Virus record (IMG/VR): IMGVR_UViG_3300042885_000259
Coordinates: 1-28,600 of that record
Reading direction: 5' to 3' (one strand)
DNA: 28,600 nt
DNA from: a virus
Shown here: one piece after another, positions 1,261 to 7,180 of the stretch
Position numbering within the stretch: position 1 is the stretch's first letter
Layout of the letters: every line of letters starts with the position of its first letter
Notes under the pieces: model-generated
What the model was told of the DNA's origin: nothing
The model's database searches: none
What the model saw: the letters and a program-made list of their open reading frames with translations, nothing else
Position numbers and translations under genes: made by a program

Positions 1261-1512
1261 TTATGCGTTAATAAAGTAGATAACTACCAGTGTACCAGTA
1301 ATATATCCAATTGACAGAGCGAAAGCCATCTGTATACGCTCAGTCCAGTCAGTTGCCTCCACTATGTATTTGATGAAGGGGAGTCCCAGAAATGGAGAAA
1401 TGCCAGCAAAGAATATCATGCCAGCCAGATTCCGTTCTGTTACAAAAGTAATATAAAACGTGCTACAAATCTCAATGACCAGAGCCGAAAGGAATAATAC
1501 AAAGTACTTCAT
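1261..1512 (-). CDS. Small three-helix membrane protein, function unknown
   Basis: An 83-aa hydrophobic protein with three predicted transmembrane helices at about residues 3-22, 29-51 and 62-82, separated by short charged loops (TERN; EATDWTER). I do not recognise the family with confidence. Its ATG overlaps the TGA of the upstream kinase gene (ATGA overlap), so the two are translationally coupled, and it is followed 12 bp later by the small terminase. Small membrane proteins of this size occur in many phage modification or early regions; this one is not in the lysis cassette, so a holin role is less likely. It could be a host-membrane-directed or superinfection protein, but nothing in the sequence decides this. 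Confidence 0.75.
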   Translation of the reverse strand: MKYFVLFLSALVIEICSTFYITFVTERNLAGMIFFAGISPFLGLPFIKYIVEATDWTERIQMAFALSIGYITGTLVVIYFINA

Positions 1513-2009
1513 ATCCGTTCCCTTATGAGTTTGCTTAATACCTCCATCGCCTTGGCTGAGTCAGTGACTGTAAAGTCGCCTTCCTTCATTGGGATATTAC
1601 CCACTCGAGTGGTGATTGATTTTAATTGGCGCTCAGATTGATTAGAGCCTCTCTTCACTCTTCCAGCTAACCCATCACCCATTATCTTGATGATAGTCGG
1701 CTCAGCGCTCTCTAATGCCCTCCTATTTGTAAACCTATCTCCCTCCATGATTATTACTTTACCTTGGTTGAGTTCTAAGAATCCATCGAGATCAGTGATG
1801 ACACTCATTGAAAGTCGGTCAGAGCCTTCGAAAGTTGAGCCATCGTATTTCCCCACTACAATAACAGATTCAGAGCAGTGCCAATAGAACTTGCCGTACT
1901 TCCGTTTGTTGGTGCATCCAAAGGTGCTGATGATGGACTTCATGAGCCATGTCTTCCCCACCCCAGCGCATCCGATTACCAGAAAGTTATTGTTAGTTCC
2001 GTTTTCCAT
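1509..2009 (-). CDS. P-loop kinase, 5-hydroxymethyl-dU DNA kinase-like
   Basis: A 166-aa P-loop NTPase. Walker A is GCAGVGKT at residues 13-20, and a Walker B-like strand VIIMEGD lies at 85-91. The segment GKYDGSTFEGSDRLSMSV (53-70) and the LID-like region with RVKRGSNQSERQLKSITTR (117-135) resemble phage nucleic-acid kinases associated with base hypermodification, including those that phosphorylate 5-hydroxymethyluracil in DNA. I chose ATG 2009: translation from there begins just before the P-loop strand, while codons upstream lie inside the preceding gene. The same frame stays open upstream to 2084. It overlaps the helical-domain gene by 17 bp; in known 5-hmdU DNA kinases I recall the helical and kinase domains as one polypeptide, so this may be a split kinase. 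A generic nucleotide kinase is the main alternative. Confidence 0.72.
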   Translation of the reverse strand: MENGTNNNFLVIGCAGVGKTWLMKSIISTFGCTNKRKYGKFYWHCSESVIVVGKYDGSTFEGSDRLSMSVITDLDGFLELNQGKVIIMEGDRFTNRRALESAEPTIIKIMGDGLAGRVKRGSNQSERQLKSITTRVGNIPMKEGDFTVTDSAKAMEVLSKLIRERI

Positions 2010-2898
2010 TTGATTGTTTTTTCTCAGATAAGAATTTGTGATTATAAGTTTCCTCTCGGAATTGCCATAAGGGAGTCCAGTCAACTCCAGAGGTAATGGC
2101 TGAAGTCAGTTTGGAAAGTTCCTTACCAGAGCGCTCGATGTAGTACCCTACATACCTCTTGCCGAGTCGATATTTCTTGTAAGCGCATAAGGTCGTCTCG
2201 ATGTTCCAGATGTTCTTGTGGTCGATTTCCATTAGCTGGATAGCCTCATAGATTTGAGTGAATTTACCTTGCAGAAGTTTCACCTCATCGCCGTTGATTT
2301 TTTTATCAGTGCCATGCGTGAAAAGTTCATTCAAGTCGAAAGCCAGTACCAATCCATTGCGACATGATTCCGCCTCTTTCAAGTCCAAGTGAGTTGGCTG
2401 AATTGCCAGATCAGTGAGTACATTGACCATCTCCAGATAAATGAAAAGAGTGAATCTACCAAAGGTGAATATCTCGGAAGCCTTGTTGTAAACCTTATTG
2501 TAGTTTTCACCAGAGGTGGAGGTGCATAGGGATCTAAAAAAGTCGTGTTGAGTTCTGTTCCCTATCATCCGTTTGTAAGATACGAAAGCATCTACAAATT
2601 GATTTGAGGATTTCACTCGAAGCCTATCAGTCTGGAAGATTAACGGCGTCTTGTTTTTGTCCCACCAGATTTGTAGTCGGTCCAAATCGACATTCTCGAA
2701 ATCTGGAAATTCATTGTAGATGTAGTAAGTGGTCGTTGCCGAGTAGGAGCATGCGTAAAGGAACGCCATCCAGTACCTTTGCTCGATATTCAATTCAAAT
2801 CGATTGCAGAGGTATCGTAAGGTATCATTCGCTGGATCAATGTCCCGAGCCAGTGAACTCCTTTTGTGATATTCAAGGTATTTTTCTAAGTTGTCCAT
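1993..2898 (-). CDS. Helical protein of the aGPT-PPlase2 / HMUDK_hel type, hypermodification-associated
   Basis: A 301-aa, largely alpha-helical protein. It carries the signature segments of the family first named alpha-glutamyl/putrescinyl thymine pyrophosphorylase clade 2 and later the helical domain of 5-hmdU DNA kinases: an EQRYWMAFLYACSYSATTTYY stretch near residues 39-59, WWDKNKTPLIFQTDR near 78-92, FGRFTLFIYLE near 146-156, and SCRNGLVLAF near 178-187. Members are found in phage clusters that decorate thymine. It is followed by the P-loop kinase with a 17-bp overlap, consistent with one functional unit. Assignment is from remembered family motifs; an amino acid:DNA transferase role, described for relatives, is an alternative to being a kinase accessory domain. 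The final codons include an A6 run (2017-2022) next to the frame change. Confidence 0.6.
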   Translation of the reverse strand: MDNLEKYLEYHKRSSLARDIDPANDTLRYLCNRFELNIEQRYWMAFLYACSYSATTTYYIYNEFPDFENVDLDRLQIWWDKNKTPLIFQTDRLRVKSSNQFVDAFVSYKRMIGNRTQHDFFRSLCTSTSGENYNKVYNKASEIFTFGRFTLFIYLEMVNVLTDLAIQPTHLDLKEAESCRNGLVLAFDLNELFTHGTDKKINGDEVKLLQGKFTQIYEAIQLMEIDHKNIWNIETTLCAYKKYRLGKRYVGYYIERSGKELSKLTSAITSGVDWTPLWQFREETYNHKFLSEKKQSNGKRN

Positions 2899-3317
2899 TT
2901 GCGCATCTTTGTACCCTTATTCCGAGTAAAACATATTCCATCCAATTTCATTCCGCACGCTTCGTAAAATAAGTTGGCTGAGGTATTGGTATCGTTGCAT
3001 TTGATTGTTAGCTTCTTGCCTTCTCGTTGTGCCTTAGACATCATCGCCGTTACGATAAACTTCCCTACCCCTTTACCCTTGAAATCCTCCCTTACGGCTA
3101 TTTCCTCAATTACATAAGAATTGGCTCTTGGTGACCATTTGTAGTGACAGAAAGCGATGTCATCAATAACCATGAACTTGTTATTGCTCGTCTTTTTGAG
3201 ATAGTTCTGCCAGACCATAAACAAGTCAAAACTGCCTATGTGTTCCTTCTCCTTTTTGTAGATTTCTTTTATCCATGAAGCATCGCTCTCGGATGCCGAT
3301 CTAATTATTAATTCCAT
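2886..3317 (-). CDS. GNAT-family N-acetyltransferase
   Basis: A 143-aa single-domain GNAT enzyme that would transfer an acyl group from acyl-CoA to an amine. The acetyl-CoA pyrophosphate loop is KGKGVG at residues 80-85, preceded by the beta-4 strand VIEEIAVRED and followed by the alpha-3 helix. The C-terminal NTSANLFYEACGMK segment (about 110-123) is the usual motif B region. It overlaps the amidotransferase upstream by 10 bp and the helical-domain gene downstream by 13 bp, so it belongs to the same operon. In phage base-hypermodification clusters, GNAT proteins are thought to modify the base itself or an amine already attached to it. That role here is inferred from context; antibiotic or protein acetylation cannot be excluded from sequence. 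Confidence 0.85.
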   Translation of the reverse strand: MELIIRSASESDASWIKEIYKKEKEHIGSFDLFMVWQNYLKKTSNNKFMVIDDIAFCHYKWSPRANSYVIEEIAVREDFKGKGVGKFIVTAMMSKAQREGKKLTIKCNDTNTSANLFYEACGMKLDGICFTRNKGTKMRKWTT

Positions 3318-3925
3318 TGAAGTAAAGTGTTAATTGGTACTTGTTCCGGAGTGCAACCATCAATTGCCCTTTTGAAAATATCTTGGGTGGAAGCGATGAA
3401 TACGGATTCCCCTACCTCCAGAAACCATAATGGTCGAAAGCCGTTAGTGAAAGCGTAAAGAGTCTCCCCCTTAATAATAACTCCAGAAAAAGAGCCGTTG
3501 TCCTTGACAAAGTTTAGGAGCGCTTGTGGATCTAAATTTGAAACCCTTAATGCGATTTCCCCATCATTTTCCGTAGTCATTTTTATTTGGTATTTTTCTT
3601 CCATTTGCGATTTCGTCCCCATGTCAATCACCCCATTAAAACATAAAGAAGTATCGCCGATTTCTATCGGTTGATTGTTCAAATGATTTTTAAAGTCGCC
3701 AGAAGTTGAGTACCGATTATGGTAAATTTGGACATTTGAAAGTGGAATTGCGATGTCGCTAAATTGATTTTGAAAGTACTTTTTTGTAACGATTTTTGAA
3801 TTTTCGAGGTACGAAATTCCAGTCGAATGCAGTCCCCGAATCCGAGATTGACGTAATAATTTGAACAATAAATACCAGTCATTTTCACTTGGTTTTTTAC
3901 TGAAATATCCGATTATTCCACACAT
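3308..3925 (-). CDS. Stand-alone class II glutamine amidotransferase (Ntn hydrolase)
   Basis: A 205-aa glutaminase domain that would release ammonia from glutamine. The start reads Met-Cys-Gly-Ile, so removal of Met leaves the N-terminal Cys nucleophile. Other family landmarks are present: RGLHSTGIS (30-38), HNRYSTSG (69-76), the oxyanion-hole FNG (96-98) and the NDGE segment (120-123). Family enzymes such as GlmS, PurF and AsnB carry a second synthase domain; here the chain ends after the glutaminase, so ammonia must pass to a separate partner. It is the first gene after the intergenic element at 3952-4077 and heads the GNAT/kinase/terminase block. A plausible use is amination of a modified base; nothing in the sequence names the acceptor. 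Confidence 0.86.
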   Translation of the reverse strand: MCGIIGYFSKKPSENDWYLLFKLLRQSRIRGLHSTGISYLENSKIVTKKYFQNQFSDIAIPLSNVQIYHNRYSTSGDFKNHLNNQPIEIGDTSLCFNGVIDMGTKSQMEEKYQIKMTTENDGEIALRVSNLDPQALLNFVKDNGSFSGVIIKGETLYAFTNGFRPLWFLEVGESVFIASTQDIFKRAIDGCTPEQVPINTLLQWN

Positions 3926-3951
3926 AATAATTTAATTTATACAAATTTTTA

Positions 3952-4077
3952 CCCCTTTGGAAACCCTTACTCCTAGGGCGTTTTGCACTTCGCCAAAAAA
4001 ACAACCTACCATCCCATCAATAACTAAAGTCGCTCTAAACGGCTTAAAATTGTGTTCTCGTTTATTTTGTGTTTTTG
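3952..4077 (-). promoter_or_regulatory. Intergenic element, copy A: two hairpins plus GAGTAAGGGTTTCC core
   Basis: This gap lies between the dioxygenase stop and the amidotransferase start. In minus-strand sense it carries, in order, ACACAA-type A-rich segments, TAAGCCG, a small hairpin (CGTT-TAG-AGCG; 4031-4041), a hairpin at 3977-3994 (GGCG...CGCC) whose loop contains AAGTGCA, then GAGTAAGGGTTTCCAAAGGGG ending 26 bp before the ATG. The same order occurs at 15472-15606 and 28468-28600. Hairpin 1 needs a G-U pair that exists only in minus-strand RNA. Candidates are a block promoter/leader, a terminator-antiterminator, or a binding site for a phage regulator. Confidence 0.75.
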
Positions 4078-4086
4078 TAATTTTGG

Positions 4087-4905
4087 TCATAAATTGTCCA
4101 ATTTTTCATCCAAATTATCGACATTTCTGAAGGCTTTTAAGGGATAAAATACCAGAGTATTTCGGTAGCCTTTTGGCTCGGTTGGAACGATGGGAGTGAC
4201 GCCATGCAGATTTCTCCACGCTGGATAAACTAACATGGAATTATCGTAAGATCCGAAAACTGCATCGTAATCTGGCACCGATAAATTGCCCCCTCGACTG
4301 CCTTCCCTTTTTGACAAAATTACATTTACGCAACCTTTCAAATTGGCATTGTCGATATGGTAGGAAGCACTGATATTGAAGTTGGAAATCGATGAAGTAA
4401 ACATCGTACCCAGCCTCCATTGTTTTGGAACGGCGTCCGTAATTATCTTGACTTGTTGTTCGTAAATGTGCGGAGTAAGATTCTTGATAAGTTCTTCGCA
4501 TTCCCTACAAACGACTAGCATCGCTTTGATGAATACTTCTGCAGATTTGACATCATGAACACTGCTACGAGTAGGATAAGCCCTCCTCATGTGAGGCTTT
4601 GGAGGTACAGAGCCAATGATTGTTGAGTATTGCTCAACACCAGAGCCACCATCTCGGCGAGCGTTGATTGCTGAGGATCTACTTAGCACTGACTTTGGTA
4701 CTCGCTTGGAGCGAAGTTCAGAATTGGCGATGTCCACGAACTTAGACAAAGTTGGATTGACTTTCCTTGTGTCCCTTATGTAGAAGCCTATTACCTCGCC
4801 ATCTACCTCCAGAAAACAATCTTCCACTACATTGGGTGGAATCATCTCACATACATCCCCTACCTTGCGAGAATGTTTTACTGGAATCAGTTTAATTGTT
4901 TTCAT
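4087..4905 (-). CDS. TET/JBP-like 2-oxoglutarate/Fe(II) dioxygenase, predicted DNA base hydroxylase
   Basis: A 272-aa protein whose C-terminal half has the double-stranded beta-helix pattern of TET/JBP-type oxygenases. Iron ligands: H183 and D185 in SYHIDNANLKG, and H234 in NLHGVTP. The 2-oxoglutarate-binding Arg is likely R248 in GYRNTLVFY. Between them sit the family's glycine-rich turn (GGNLSVPDYD, 205-214) and a turn before the distal His. Phage relatives hydroxylate 5-methylcytosine in DNA, and JBP enzymes hydroxylate thymine. No cytosine methyltransferase is in the window, whereas a 5-hmdU kinase-like pair is, so thymine is my preferred substrate (inference). It is the last gene of the replication block and overlaps the ParB-like gene by 14 bp. 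A small-molecule or protein hydroxylase remains possible. Confidence 0.72.
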   Translation of the reverse strand: MKTIKLIPVKHSRKVGDVCEMIPPNVVEDCFLEVDGEVIGFYIRDTRKVNPTLSKFVDIANSELRSKRVPKSVLSRSSAINARRDGGSGVEQYSTIIGSVPPKPHMRRAYPTRSSVHDVKSAEVFIKAMLVVCRECEELIKNLTPHIYEQQVKIITDAVPKQWRLGTMFTSSISNFNISASYHIDNANLKGCVNVILSKREGSRGGNLSVPDYDAVFGSYDNSMLVYPAWRNLHGVTPIVPTEPKGYRNTLVFYPLKAFRNVDNLDEKLDNL

Positions 4906-5461
4906 TGTGTCTCAGTGTGTTTTGTAGTTCGGTTAATAGATTACCCCCAATATACAATTTGAGTTCCCTACATCGCTTCTCAAGGTCCTTAGCGTTGTCG
5001 TATTGGTCAGAGTCAATAGTTATTTGAATTGCATGCTTTACCCCATCGGTCATAGATTCGATTTCCTTCCCCATCTCCTCGTAGTCCAGAGCCGAATAAT
5101 CAATTGCAGTTCTTCCGAGCCACTTGTTAACCACTTCGGAATTGAAGTTGAAGTCCAGCATGTCCCAATCCCATTCACCATAAGACAAATTATCTTTGAT
5201 TACCAGTTCCTTTTGCTTCTCTGGACTGAGGTCAACCATCATAGCTGGCACATCATCCAAGCCAAGTTCTACGCATGCTCGGTAGCGCATATTTCCGCAA
5301 AGGATATCCATCTCCTTATTGATTACTACGCATCGAACTCCCATCATTTGAGGAAATTCCAGAATTGAATTTTTCAAGGATTCGAATTTGTATTCATCGA
5401 TCAACCTTGGATTGATTGCATACGGCTTTAATTCTTTGAGTTTATAGATTTCAATTTTCAT
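4892..5461 (-). CDS. ParB-like N-terminal domain protein, first paralogue
   Basis: A 189-aa protein with a ParB/Srx-superfamily domain at about residues 1-110: NPR near 17-19, a helix ending SILEFPQMMG, ILCGNMRYRACVELG near 53-67 (the nucleotide-binding GGNMR-like motif), then LSPEKQKELVIKDN and YGEWDWDML. No helix-turn-helix DNA-binding domain follows, so this is not a chromosome-partition ParB. Superfamily members bind CTP or ATP, and some are serine kinases or nucleases. The C-terminal 50 residues (HAIQITIDSDQYDNAKDLEK...) resemble the end of the neighbouring paralogue at 5451-6092, indicating tandem duplication. It overlaps the dioxygenase by 14 bp. ParB-like proteins recur in phage DNA-modification loci; a targeting or nucleotide-dependent role is inference. 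Confidence 0.85.
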   Translation of the reverse strand: MKIEIYKLKELKPYAINPRLIDEYKFESLKNSILEFPQMMGVRCVVINKEMDILCGNMRYRACVELGLDDVPAMMVDLSPEKQKELVIKDNLSYGEWDWDMLDFNFNSEVVNKWLGRTAIDYSALDYEEMGKEIESMTDGVKHAIQITIDSDQYDNAKDLEKRCRELKLYIGGNLLTELQNTLRHNENN

Positions 5462-6092
5462 TTTGAAGTTGTTTAGTCATGGAGGCGATAAGAATATTGC
5501 CGATATTTATTTTCTTGCTCTTTAAGGCATTGACCAAATCGAACGCCTCCGAATAATCTCCCAGCATAAATTCAATTTGAATTACCTTCTTTTTAATTTT
5601 TTCACCAGAATCAGTGGGATCACTCGATGGAATTGGATCGTCGTCGAAATCATCCGATTGACCAATTGGCTCGTAAAAGTCCGTTGGTTGCCAGACATCC
5701 AATCCCCAGCCTCCTAATTCAACCTCATCAAAATTGTTGGCTAAGAAGTCCCAATCCCATTCACCAAAGTGAGCGTTATCCTTTACGATAAACTCCTCCT
5801 TTTGTTCCGGACTCAGTCCACGCATAATAATTATTGGCACTAACTTCAGACCAGCGTAGGACATTGCCTTAAATCGCATGTTACCACCCAGAATAACCAT
5901 CCCCTCGTCAACTACCAAAGGTCGAATGTTCGCCATCTCTGGAAAGTCCTTGAGTGAAGAAACCAGTTTGTTGAACTTAGCATCCCGAATTATCCTCGGA
6001 TTCTTTGCGTTCATTACAACTGAATTAATTTTTACCATTTCAATTTCTCCGAGTTCCTTCCCCCAGATTGATTGCTCTACTTTTTTTGCCAT
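5451..6092 (-). CDS. ParB-like N-terminal domain protein, second paralogue
   Basis: A 213-aa ParB/Srx-superfamily protein. NPRIIRDAKF near residues 31-40, VILGGNMRFKAMSYAG near 66-81, LSPEQKEEFIVKDN and FGEWDWDFL align with the paralogue at 4892-5461. It differs by a ~17-residue N-terminal extension and an acidic spacer (DDFDDDP and SSDPTDSGE, about 147-163) before the C-terminal region KKVIQIEFMLGDYSEAFDL, which also aligns with the paralogue. The linker and divergence suggest the two copies have specialised, perhaps as a heterodimer (inference). It overlaps the gene downstream by 11 bp and the GP88-like gene upstream by 16 bp. Confidence 0.86.
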   Translation of the reverse strand: MAKKVEQSIWGKELGEIEMVKINSVVMNAKNPRIIRDAKFNKLVSSLKDFPEMANIRPLVVDEGMVILGGNMRFKAMSYAGLKLVPIIIMRGLSPEQKEEFIVKDNAHFGEWDWDFLANNFDEVELGGWGLDVWQPTDFYEPIGQSDDFDDDPIPSSDPTDSGEKIKKKVIQIEFMLGDYSEAFDLVNALKSKKINIGNILIASMTKQLQNEN

Positions 6093-6751
6093 TGTGAAAA
6101 GTTTTTGTCCCCCATCTTTTTGATGAAGTGTTTGATATTATTACGATATAAGCCTACCTTATGATTCGGATGGATTGCAGATTGCTTGTCGTCCTCGCCG
6201 ATGTCGTTGTAGCCCTTAGCGATCATTTCATCGTAGTCGTGGAATACATCTGAGTGGCGATCCTTTTCGACATCAATCATCTTATCTTGCCTTCCTCCGT
6301 AGGAGTAGATTACGATAAAGTTTGGAGGTATCGATAGCCTCAATTTATATTTGAAAAGTTCCACCTCCTTGGTGTAAGTATAGAAAATTGTGTTTGGATT
6401 TTGCTTGGCTAGATAAAGCCAGTCTTGAGCGTATTGCTCTGAAAAGAAATCACCAGCATCGTGAATACGAATGAACTTGCGATTGTATTTTGGTTTTGAG
6501 ATTTCCTCGGTCATGAGGCTGAGCCACTTGGAGCGATTGAATAAAACTAATTCAAGTTTCTCCAGATGTGCTTTTTTTACATTTGAGAATTGGTAAGTCC
6601 CAGATTTGGCATAACAGAAAGCCCCACAGATTCCAGCGTTAGGACATGTATTGAACTTCTTGCCAGATGATAAAGTTACCCAATGTGCTGGAAGAGTCCA
6701 GCCGTAAATTCCACTCTTTCGTAAATCAGAATTTTGCGTTAAAAGTACCAT
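6077..6751 (-). CDS. GP88-family Cys-cluster phage protein, possible iron-sulfur or radical enzyme
   Basis: A 224-aa protein resembling the phage 'gene product 88' family. A compact cysteine cluster TCPNAGICGAFCYAKSG holds C36, C42 and C46 (C-x5-C-x3-C). This is followed by KFIRIHDAGDFFSEQYAQDW near residues 91-110 and TIFYTYTKEVELF near 120-132, the other conserved blocks I recall for the family. The cysteine spacing and the alternating strand/helix pattern are compatible with an Fe-S cluster in a TIM-barrel, loosely like radical SAM proteins, but the canonical CX3CX2C is absent. It sits directly before the ParB pair and the dioxygenase, so a step in base modification is plausible. Function is not established from sequence alone. 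Confidence 0.62.
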   Translation of the reverse strand: MVLLTQNSDLRKSGIYGWTLPAHWVTLSSGKKFNTCPNAGICGAFCYAKSGTYQFSNVKKAHLEKLELVLFNRSKWLSLMTEEISKPKYNRKFIRIHDAGDFFSEQYAQDWLYLAKQNPNTIFYTYTKEVELFKYKLRLSIPPNFIVIYSYGGRQDKMIDVEKDRHSDVFHDYDEMIAKGYNDIGEDDKQSAIHPNHKVGLYRNNIKHFIKKMGDKNFSQWQKK

Positions 6752-6976
6752 TTAGATAAGCCAGTTAATCAAAGAAAAAAGTCCGAAAATTACTCCAGTG
6801 ATTACGATTCTAACTATTGACATTGACCAGAGTTTGTCTTTAGCGATCCATGTGCCGATGCTTGGAGCATCAACCCAGAAAATAGCCAGAAGAATAATTC
6901 TGTCAGCCATAAAAGTTGCGAATACAAGTGGAAGCAGTAGTATGCCTATTGCTATTTTTAATTTGGATTGTTTCAT
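6752..6976 (-). CDS. Small two-helix membrane protein, function unknown
   Basis: A 74-aa protein with hydrophobic segments at about residues 7-32 and 53-73 around a polar stretch (DAPSIGTWIAKDKLW). I place the start at ATG 6976, with an A-rich leader. The frame stays open upstream to 7123, but those codons overlap the 35-aa membrane gene and look non-coding. The ATG overlaps the TGA of that gene. I do not recognise a family. The pair with 6973-7080 resembles two small membrane proteins made together; a membrane-directed early phage function is a guess. Confidence 0.65.
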   Translation of the reverse strand: MKQSKLKIAIGILLLPLVFATFMADRIILLAIFWVDAPSIGTWIAKDKLWSMSIVRIVITGVIFGLFSLINWLI

Positions 6977-7080
6977 TTTTCTATTTGTTTTAAGGTGGAA
7001 TAAATCATCATAGCGAGCATAATAATTATCACTCCGTAGTAGATTACGAATCCTAATTTGCGCTTGATATTTTCTTTCAT
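6973..7080 (-). CDS. Tiny single-helix membrane protein (35 aa)
   Basis: Found by hand reading. The ATG at 7078-7080 follows TTAAAAAAGCATA, which matches the A-rich AAAAAAGCAAA leader before many genes of this block. The 35-aa product has a basic N-terminus (MKENIKRK) and one hydrophobic helix at about residues 9-28, ending in a polar tail (STLKQIEK). Its TGA overlaps the next ATG (6974-6976). Leader, overlap and helix together support a real gene. Function unknown. Confidence 0.6.
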   Translation of the reverse strand: MKENIKRKLGFVIYYGVIIIMLAMMIYSTLKQIEK

Positions 7081-7095
7081 TATGCTTTTTTAAGA

Positions 7096-7180
7096 TGAAA
7101 TTAAGGGAGGTAGCTAAAAGCAATTTAAAGAATAGTCGAACATCCTTGTTTAGAATAAACTACCACCTCCCAGAATTTCA
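7096..7180 (-). repeat. Imperfect inverted repeat forming a long mRNA hairpin before a small membrane gene
   Basis: The arms are 7096-7113 (TGAAATT-AA-GGGAGG-TAG) and 7160-7180 (CTACCACCTCCC-AG-AATTTCA), about 16 pairs with one internal mismatch pair and a three-base bulge, around a 46-nt loop. In minus-strand mRNA it lies between the HTH gene and the ATG at 7080. The downstream arm ends 16 nt before that ATG, so the stem could block or expose its A-rich ribosome site. It also overlaps an 18-codon frame at 7125-7181, which I do not call a gene. Confidence 0.55.

Follow-up and report, generated by a model that had tools for sequence, protein, structure and literature searches.

A conserved pre-terminase phage cassette predicted to hypermodify thymine in DNA with a TET/JBP-type oxygenase and an ADDT-family transferase

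Which base of phage DNA would be modified, and into what, by a gene cassette that places a TET/JBP-type oxygenase, a kinase and a glutaminase side by side next to terminase? The question is raised by positions 1509-6751 of the virus record IMGVR_UViG_3300042885_000259, of which we analysed a stretch of 28.6 kb (28,600 nt; hereafter the window) in which almost every gene lies on the minus strand. The interval holds nine intact minus-strand genes in succession; adjacent reading frames overlap by 4-17 nt throughout, apart from a single 6-nt gap. In the direction of transcription the locus reads GP88, ParB1, ParB2, TET, a 52-aa open reading frame (ORF), a glutaminase (GAT), GNAT, ADDT, a P-loop protein (KIN), a protein with three transmembrane segments (3-TM), and the terminase small (TerS) and large (TerL) subunits. 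Comparison with other loci, in which the same gene order recurs among many uncultured phages, shows that the conserved cassette is ParB - TET - GAT - optional GNAT - ADDT - P-loop kinase - TerS/TerL. From gene identities, unchanged catalytic residues, modelled folds and conserved linkage, we propose that it is probably a post-replicative thymine hypermodification system, in which TET, the kinase, ADDT with the glutaminase and an optional GNAT act together (rough probability 0.72).

The oxygenase gene (4087..4905, minus strand, as are all cassette and terminase genes below) encodes a TET/JBP-type Fe(II)/2-oxoglutarate dioxygenase of 272 aa. Its placement by profile search had been set beforehand as a test of the initial annotation, and the protein matches Pfam Tet_JBP (31.9 bits, E=9.1e-8), slightly below the 34.9-bit cut-off; proteins from the same slot in relatives score above it (90.8 bits in locus L016 and 83.7 bits in L173). 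The residues initially named as its active site (H183-x-D185, H234 and R248) stand at those positions and are unchanged across 23 diverse aligned sequences, and a profile of the family retrieved human TET2 chains from the PDB (E=5e-6).

The transferase gene (1993..2898, 301 aa) had been described as the helical partner of a kinase for 5-hydroxymethyl-deoxyuridine (5-hmdU). Its placement was the other profile test set beforehand, and here the outcome goes partly against the initial annotation, as a direct profile scan gave no HMUDK_hel match; the product belongs instead to the amino acid:DNA transferases (ADDT; PF18724, 77.7 bits against a cut-off of 26.2, E=1.4e-21). The sole specific PDB matches of its AlphaFold2 model (pLDDT 94.8) were 8z2n and 8z2m, both the 5-phosphomethyl-dU (5-PmdU) glycinyltransferase gp46/PUGT of Pseudomonas phage PaMx11 (probability 1.00), and ADDT is predicted, from profile and model, to displace the phosphate of 5-PmdU in DNA by an amine.

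The neighbouring gene (1509..2009, start codon probably at 2009 rather than 2084) encodes a small P-loop kinase of 166 aa, predicted to act on 5-hmdU in DNA, in which the Walker A motif GCAGVGKTW and the motif EGDR (E89-G90-x-R92) are unchanged in 24 sequences. The folds nearest to its AlphaFold2 model (pLDDT 85.6) are those of guanylate, CMP, shikimate and nicotinamide-riboside kinases, and its profile match to Ploopntkinase3 is weak (16 bits against a 27-bit cut-off), with no confident Pfam family. HMUD2, HMUDK_HMUD1 and HMUDK_hel gave no match to 1512-2009 or 1996-2898 at E<=1 in a search whose positive controls, L048 and CBA120, matched strongly. Of the first description as a 5-hmdU-kinase-like P-loop protein, the Walker A motif and small kinase fold are retained, and a match to HMUD2 or HMUDK_HMUD1 is lacking.

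The glutaminase (3308..3925) is a stand-alone class II N-terminal nucleophile (Ntn) glutamine amidotransferase that resembles the glutaminase domains of PurF and GlmS and matches a PurF-type glutaminase profile (E=6.7e-13) and a PHROG family (E=2.1e-14). Its catalytic and glutamine-site residues (C2, R71, N97-G98 and D121) are unchanged in 20 sequences and align with those of Bacillus subtilis PurF; GATase_6 gave 22.2 bits for the window protein (cut-off 27), and its relatives score above the cut-off. Overlapping it, the GNAT acetyltransferase gene (2886..3317) matches Acetyltransf_1 (E=2e-10).

The architecture was compared over 168 loci, with counts taken from the 60 loci that were retrieved by ADDT queries with sufficient flanking DNA; these 60 are not independent, many being related to each other and a few contigs having been retrieved twice. 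The glutaminase gene was present in all 60, TET in 57, ParB in 52 and GNAT in 45, whereas the kinase family of the window occurred in 51 and a different small P-loop protein in 5 more. GNAT would be an optional final acylation step, and its absence from 15 of the 60 loci fits an optional cap. A co-occurrence search in other phages, as first proposed, revealed the order ParB-TET-GAT-(GNAT)-ADDT-KIN in 45 of the 60 loci (46 if a locus with two ParB genes is counted), more than expected by chance; the commonest arrangement, ParB-TET-GAT-GNAT-ADDT-KIN, accounted for 39, and alternative orders included ParB-KINb-GAT-ADDT-TET and GAT-ADDT-TET-KIN. Of the 64 ADDTs with less than 90% identity placed in a tree, 57 fell within two GAT-bearing clades. 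It could be argued that TET and the kinase make another end product and stand among moron genes unrelated to them and gathered by chance, as pre-terminase phage loci collect cargo and GP88, transmembrane proteins and small ORFs vary here. This is very improbable: the co-occurrence of GAT (60/60) and TET (57/60) contradicts it, as do the fixed order among loci whose TETs share only about 20-24% identity, the overlapping reading frames, and the fusion of ADDT and kinase into one ORF in L012/L013.

Some of these proteins carry other names in public records. Phage TETs (for example, NC_020847.1 17129-17914) are labelled 'queuine tRNA-ribosyltransferase' (phrog_6059), a misannotation given that they hold the TET residues. 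The cultured Caulobacter phage Cr30 (NC_025422.1 51788-60681, L050) has a Tet_JBP protein (74 bits) listed as 'SNF2 DNA repair', and its homologue of the kinase is entered as 'terminase small subunit'; a literature search turned up no paper on modification of Cr30 DNA. In two further loci (L010:2825-3730 and L186:3302-4207) a gene of 301 aa without a family match lies between ParB and TET, followed by terminase; its sequence reads like a glycosyltransferase, and the loci possibly combine TET with glycosylation in the manner of base J.

Is the target base thymine or cytosine? Three ADDT loci lack TET: L048, L172, and L171, which is a copy overlapping L048. These three and L167 (a contig of a Sulfuricaulis metagenome-assembled genome) carry HMUDK_hel and a thymidylate synthase (TS)-family enzyme next to GAT and ADDT, with HMUD2 additionally in L048 and L172. 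TS-family genes were found in none of the 47 TET+ADDT records versus all three HMUDK-bearing records (L048, L172 and L167; exact test ~5e-5, kinship ignored), and no TS-family dUMP hydroxymethylase was found in the window. In the ADDT tree, L048/L172 (TS-type) and L173/L174/L177 (TET-type) are sister groups, all with GAT. No linked C5-cytosine methylase was found in the window or in 45 of the 47 TET+ADDT records (two have one), an absence that is not absolute because the window and most of its relatives are fragments. TET stands in for dUMP hydroxymethylase before the same transferase, and this swap, together with the lack of a C5-methylase from the 45 records, points to thymine as the target. 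The TS-type loci also hold an Amidoligase_2 protein (L048:8281-9156) and its homologue (L167:9104-9934) adjoining GAT and ADDT, which suggests a further amide-forming step there; pattern searches with the L167 ADDT gave no viral relatives.

Along with the fragmentary state of the records, several observations weigh against a thymine hypermodification pathway. The ADDT model superimposes on PUGT with only a moderate TM-score (0.57-0.63) at ~13% identity, the TM-scores of the P-loop kinase to known kinases are only about 0.5, the P-loop protein matches none of the recognised families of 5-hmdU kinase by profile, and among 164 ADDT ORFs none was fused to GAT. Furthermore, in phage Melnitz a homologous kinase sits with TET and a C5-cytosine methylase, so that relatives of the kinase and TET can also serve 5-methylcytosine (5mC). 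In a cytosine version of the pathway, a host methylase or a missing phage C5-methylase would provide 5mC for TET to convert into 5-hydroxymethylcytosine, followed by the kinase, ADDT and GNAT. The methylase, TET and kinase genes in a row in Melnitz and the C5-methylase in 2 of the 47 TET+ADDT records speak for this version, and phage TETs were reportedly found by Burke in 2021 to be active on 5mC. We nevertheless regard it as unlikely, given that the window and 45 of the 47 records have no methylase, that the same ADDT clade is also paired with TS-family and 5-hmdU kinase genes, and that the ADDT fold fits a 5-PmdU enzyme.

In the thymine pathway, TET would first hydroxylate thymine already present in phage DNA at its methyl group, forming 5-hydroxymethyl-dU, as suggested by its family and by the TET/TS swap, and would thereby replace the nucleotide-level dUMP hydroxymethylase of M6/ViI-type pathways; with some hesitation, we assign to ParB the probable role of helping to bring TET to phage DNA. 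The small P-loop kinase would then phosphorylate the hydroxymethyl group to yield 5-PmdU, the phosphate of which would be swapped for an amine by ADDT with the glutaminase, and GNAT, if present, would acylate the new amine to give, for example, 5-acetamidomethyl-dU. The modified DNA would be packaged by the adjoining terminase and would resist host restriction. The order of hydroxylation, phosphorylation, displacement and acylation had been put forward in the initial annotation; it is well supported, with the displacing enzyme now identifiable as ADDT (5-PmdU glycinyltransferase fold), but it is unproven.

The likeliest amine, as a tentative assignment, would be ammonia derived from glutamine, so that 5-aminomethyl-dU would form in a single step, because the glutaminase has retained its glutamine-site residues and accompanies this ADDT clade without exception, whatever the oxidant. 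Within the same thymine pathway, ADDT could alternatively add a free amino acid, as in M6/ViI-like systems, which the glutaminase would later trim as a gamma-glutamyl amidase or deamidase. PUGT employs glycine, an amidoligase is also present in L048 and L167, and stand-alone class II glutaminases can be amidohydrolases (EgtC, Dug3), all of which count for this version. However, the window cassette has no amidoligase, GAT lies beside ADDT in both TET- and TS-type pathways with or without GNAT or an amidoligase, and the glutamine-site residues are retained. Such trimming is possible, at less than even odds, and we favour ammonia over it.

Sister phages show how this locus exchanges its parts. 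L009 is collinear with the window, with nucleotide identity that spans GP88-ParB-ParB-TET to position 4122, vanishes, and returns at 1994 in the kinase. The GAT-GNAT-ADDT interval of the window is represented in L009 by a pyridoxal phosphate (PLP)-type enzyme together with an ADDT that has diverged to 32% identity. The PLP-type enzyme (L009:8782-9792), which takes the place of glutaminase and GNAT, resembles PLP fold-II enzymes (weak PALP match, E=0.002; phrog_3650, E=9e-82) and gave no match in a PDB sequence search. L009 shares the front end and the kinase and swaps the transfer and tailoring block, as expected if 5-PmdU is the common intermediate. A fuller and equally guarded proposal, for a direct amination route that would be new, is that ammonia from the glutaminase and an ADDT-clade transferase would convert 5-PmdU directly into 5-aminomethyl-dU without an amino-acid intermediate, before GNAT acts, and that this module would be interchangeable between pathways started by TET and by dUMP hydroxymethylase and swappable for a PLP-enzyme module; we hold this to be possible rather than probable. 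In L181 (1674-4577), the slot from ParB1 to TerS is filled by 7-deazaguanine genes (DpdA-like, YhhQ-like, QueD, QueE and FolE), with a GP88 88% identical to that of the window; the pre-terminase slot is thus one that exchanges whole base-modification systems.

The remaining genes are neighbours of this core. Glutaminase, GNAT, two ParB_N proteins and GP88 had all been named initially and were all found by profile search. ParB1 (5451..6092; PF02195, E=6.6e-6) is the core neighbour of TET, and ParB2 (4892..5461; PF02195, E=8.5e-8) is a second copy, such pairs being limited to the window's own phage group plus L012/L013. The GP88-family protein (6077..6751; PF17338, E=1.8e-46) has a Cys cluster C-x5-C-x3-C and the motif RIHDAGDFF and gave no relative among solved structures. 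As a candidate pathway enzyme it was ruled out, because close relatives are often found without TET nearby (L183-L185, L187 and L188). Its identity to the GP88 of L009 is 94%, with adjoining genes at only 44-82%, an excess that reflects recent transfer or strong constraint. The number and place of the nine genes stand as first described, but their membership does not: the ninth is the 52-aa ORF (3932..4090), and both 3-TM proteins lie outside 1509-6751, one at 1261..1512 (minus strand; three hydrophobic segments) and the other at 6752-7123. The 52-aa ORF sits between TET and the glutaminase with a 4-nt overlap with the TET stop; it had no family match in profile searches and was seen only in the same virus (L006). 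The 3-TM proteins are confined to close relatives and vary in position. GP88, the second ParB, the 3-TM proteins and the 52-aa ORF are accessory and outside the conserved system. The described adjacency to terminase holds, with TerS (847-1248, assigned by position and conservation) and TerL (2-844, cut by the contig end; phrog_38, E=4.8e-41) directly downstream.

If the proposed pathway is correct, one amine-hypermodification pathway could be entered interchangeably, either by TET oxygenating thymine in DNA or by hydroxymethylation at the nucleotide level, and a large environmental phage group with thymine-derived bases would be defined. It would also provide a compact four-enzyme set for equipping DNA with an amine, either primary or acylated, and would name the glutaminase as the partner of the transferase, making the question of donor chemistry amenable to reconstitution.

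Among known systems, the M6/ViI type, which comprises a dUMP hydroxymethylase, a 5-hmdU DNA kinase, an amino-acid transferase and tailoring enzymes, shares the transferase family, with the ADDT of Kuttervirus CBA120 scoring 195 bits. In phages M6, ViI and W-14, a DNA kinase phosphorylates the 5-hmdU residues of DNA before amine substitution takes place (PMC6449724). There a TS-family enzyme acts on dUMP, whereas the window cassette would hydroxylate thymine in DNA through TET, and the window kinase shows no profile relationship to HMUD2/HMUDK. PUGT (PaMx11 gp46; PDB 8z2m, 8z2n) has the fold and the same predicted substrate as the window ADDT but differs in sequence and in its use of glycine, and we know of no glutaminase that accompanies PUGT in the PaMx11 phage family. 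The Melnitz (Methylophilales phage) locus, with an HhaI methylase, TET (43 bits), gp7 and the homologous kinase (E=2e-8) in succession, differs in its C5-cytosine methylase and in having no recognisable ADDT or glutaminase alongside, and probably represents a 5mC route. The phage CmoA-CmoX-CmoY system of 5-carboxymethylcytosine is a precedent for transferring an amine to a DNA base and has glutaminase-domain homologues, which were only suggested to use glutamine-derived ammonia; it differs in its carboxymethyl-cytosine handle, its ATP-dependent ligase and its lack of TET (PMC12783734). Actinobacteriophages have TET-ADDT-P-loop kinase loci as well. In one example, Mycobacterium phage LilMcDreamy, gp1-gp6 lead up to terminase and include, side by side, a ParB-annotated gp1, TET (E=0.002), ADDT (47.3 bits against a cut-off of 26.2) and Ploopntkinase3 (E=1e-71), but with no glutaminase, an Asp/Asn-hydroxylase-like gene in place of GNAT, and a kinase of a recognised family. 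A TET-ADDT-kinase type of system is also said to have been predicted computationally by Iyer et al. in 2013. The combination, initially described as unfamiliar, is therefore partly known, as TET, ADDT and Ploopntkinase3 already occur beside terminase in mycobacteriophages, and it is the glutaminase-GNAT-ADDT block that is new. As far as can be told, four features are new: the glutaminase is obligate, GNAT is optional, TET is exchanged for TS around one transferase clade, and sister phages exchange modules.

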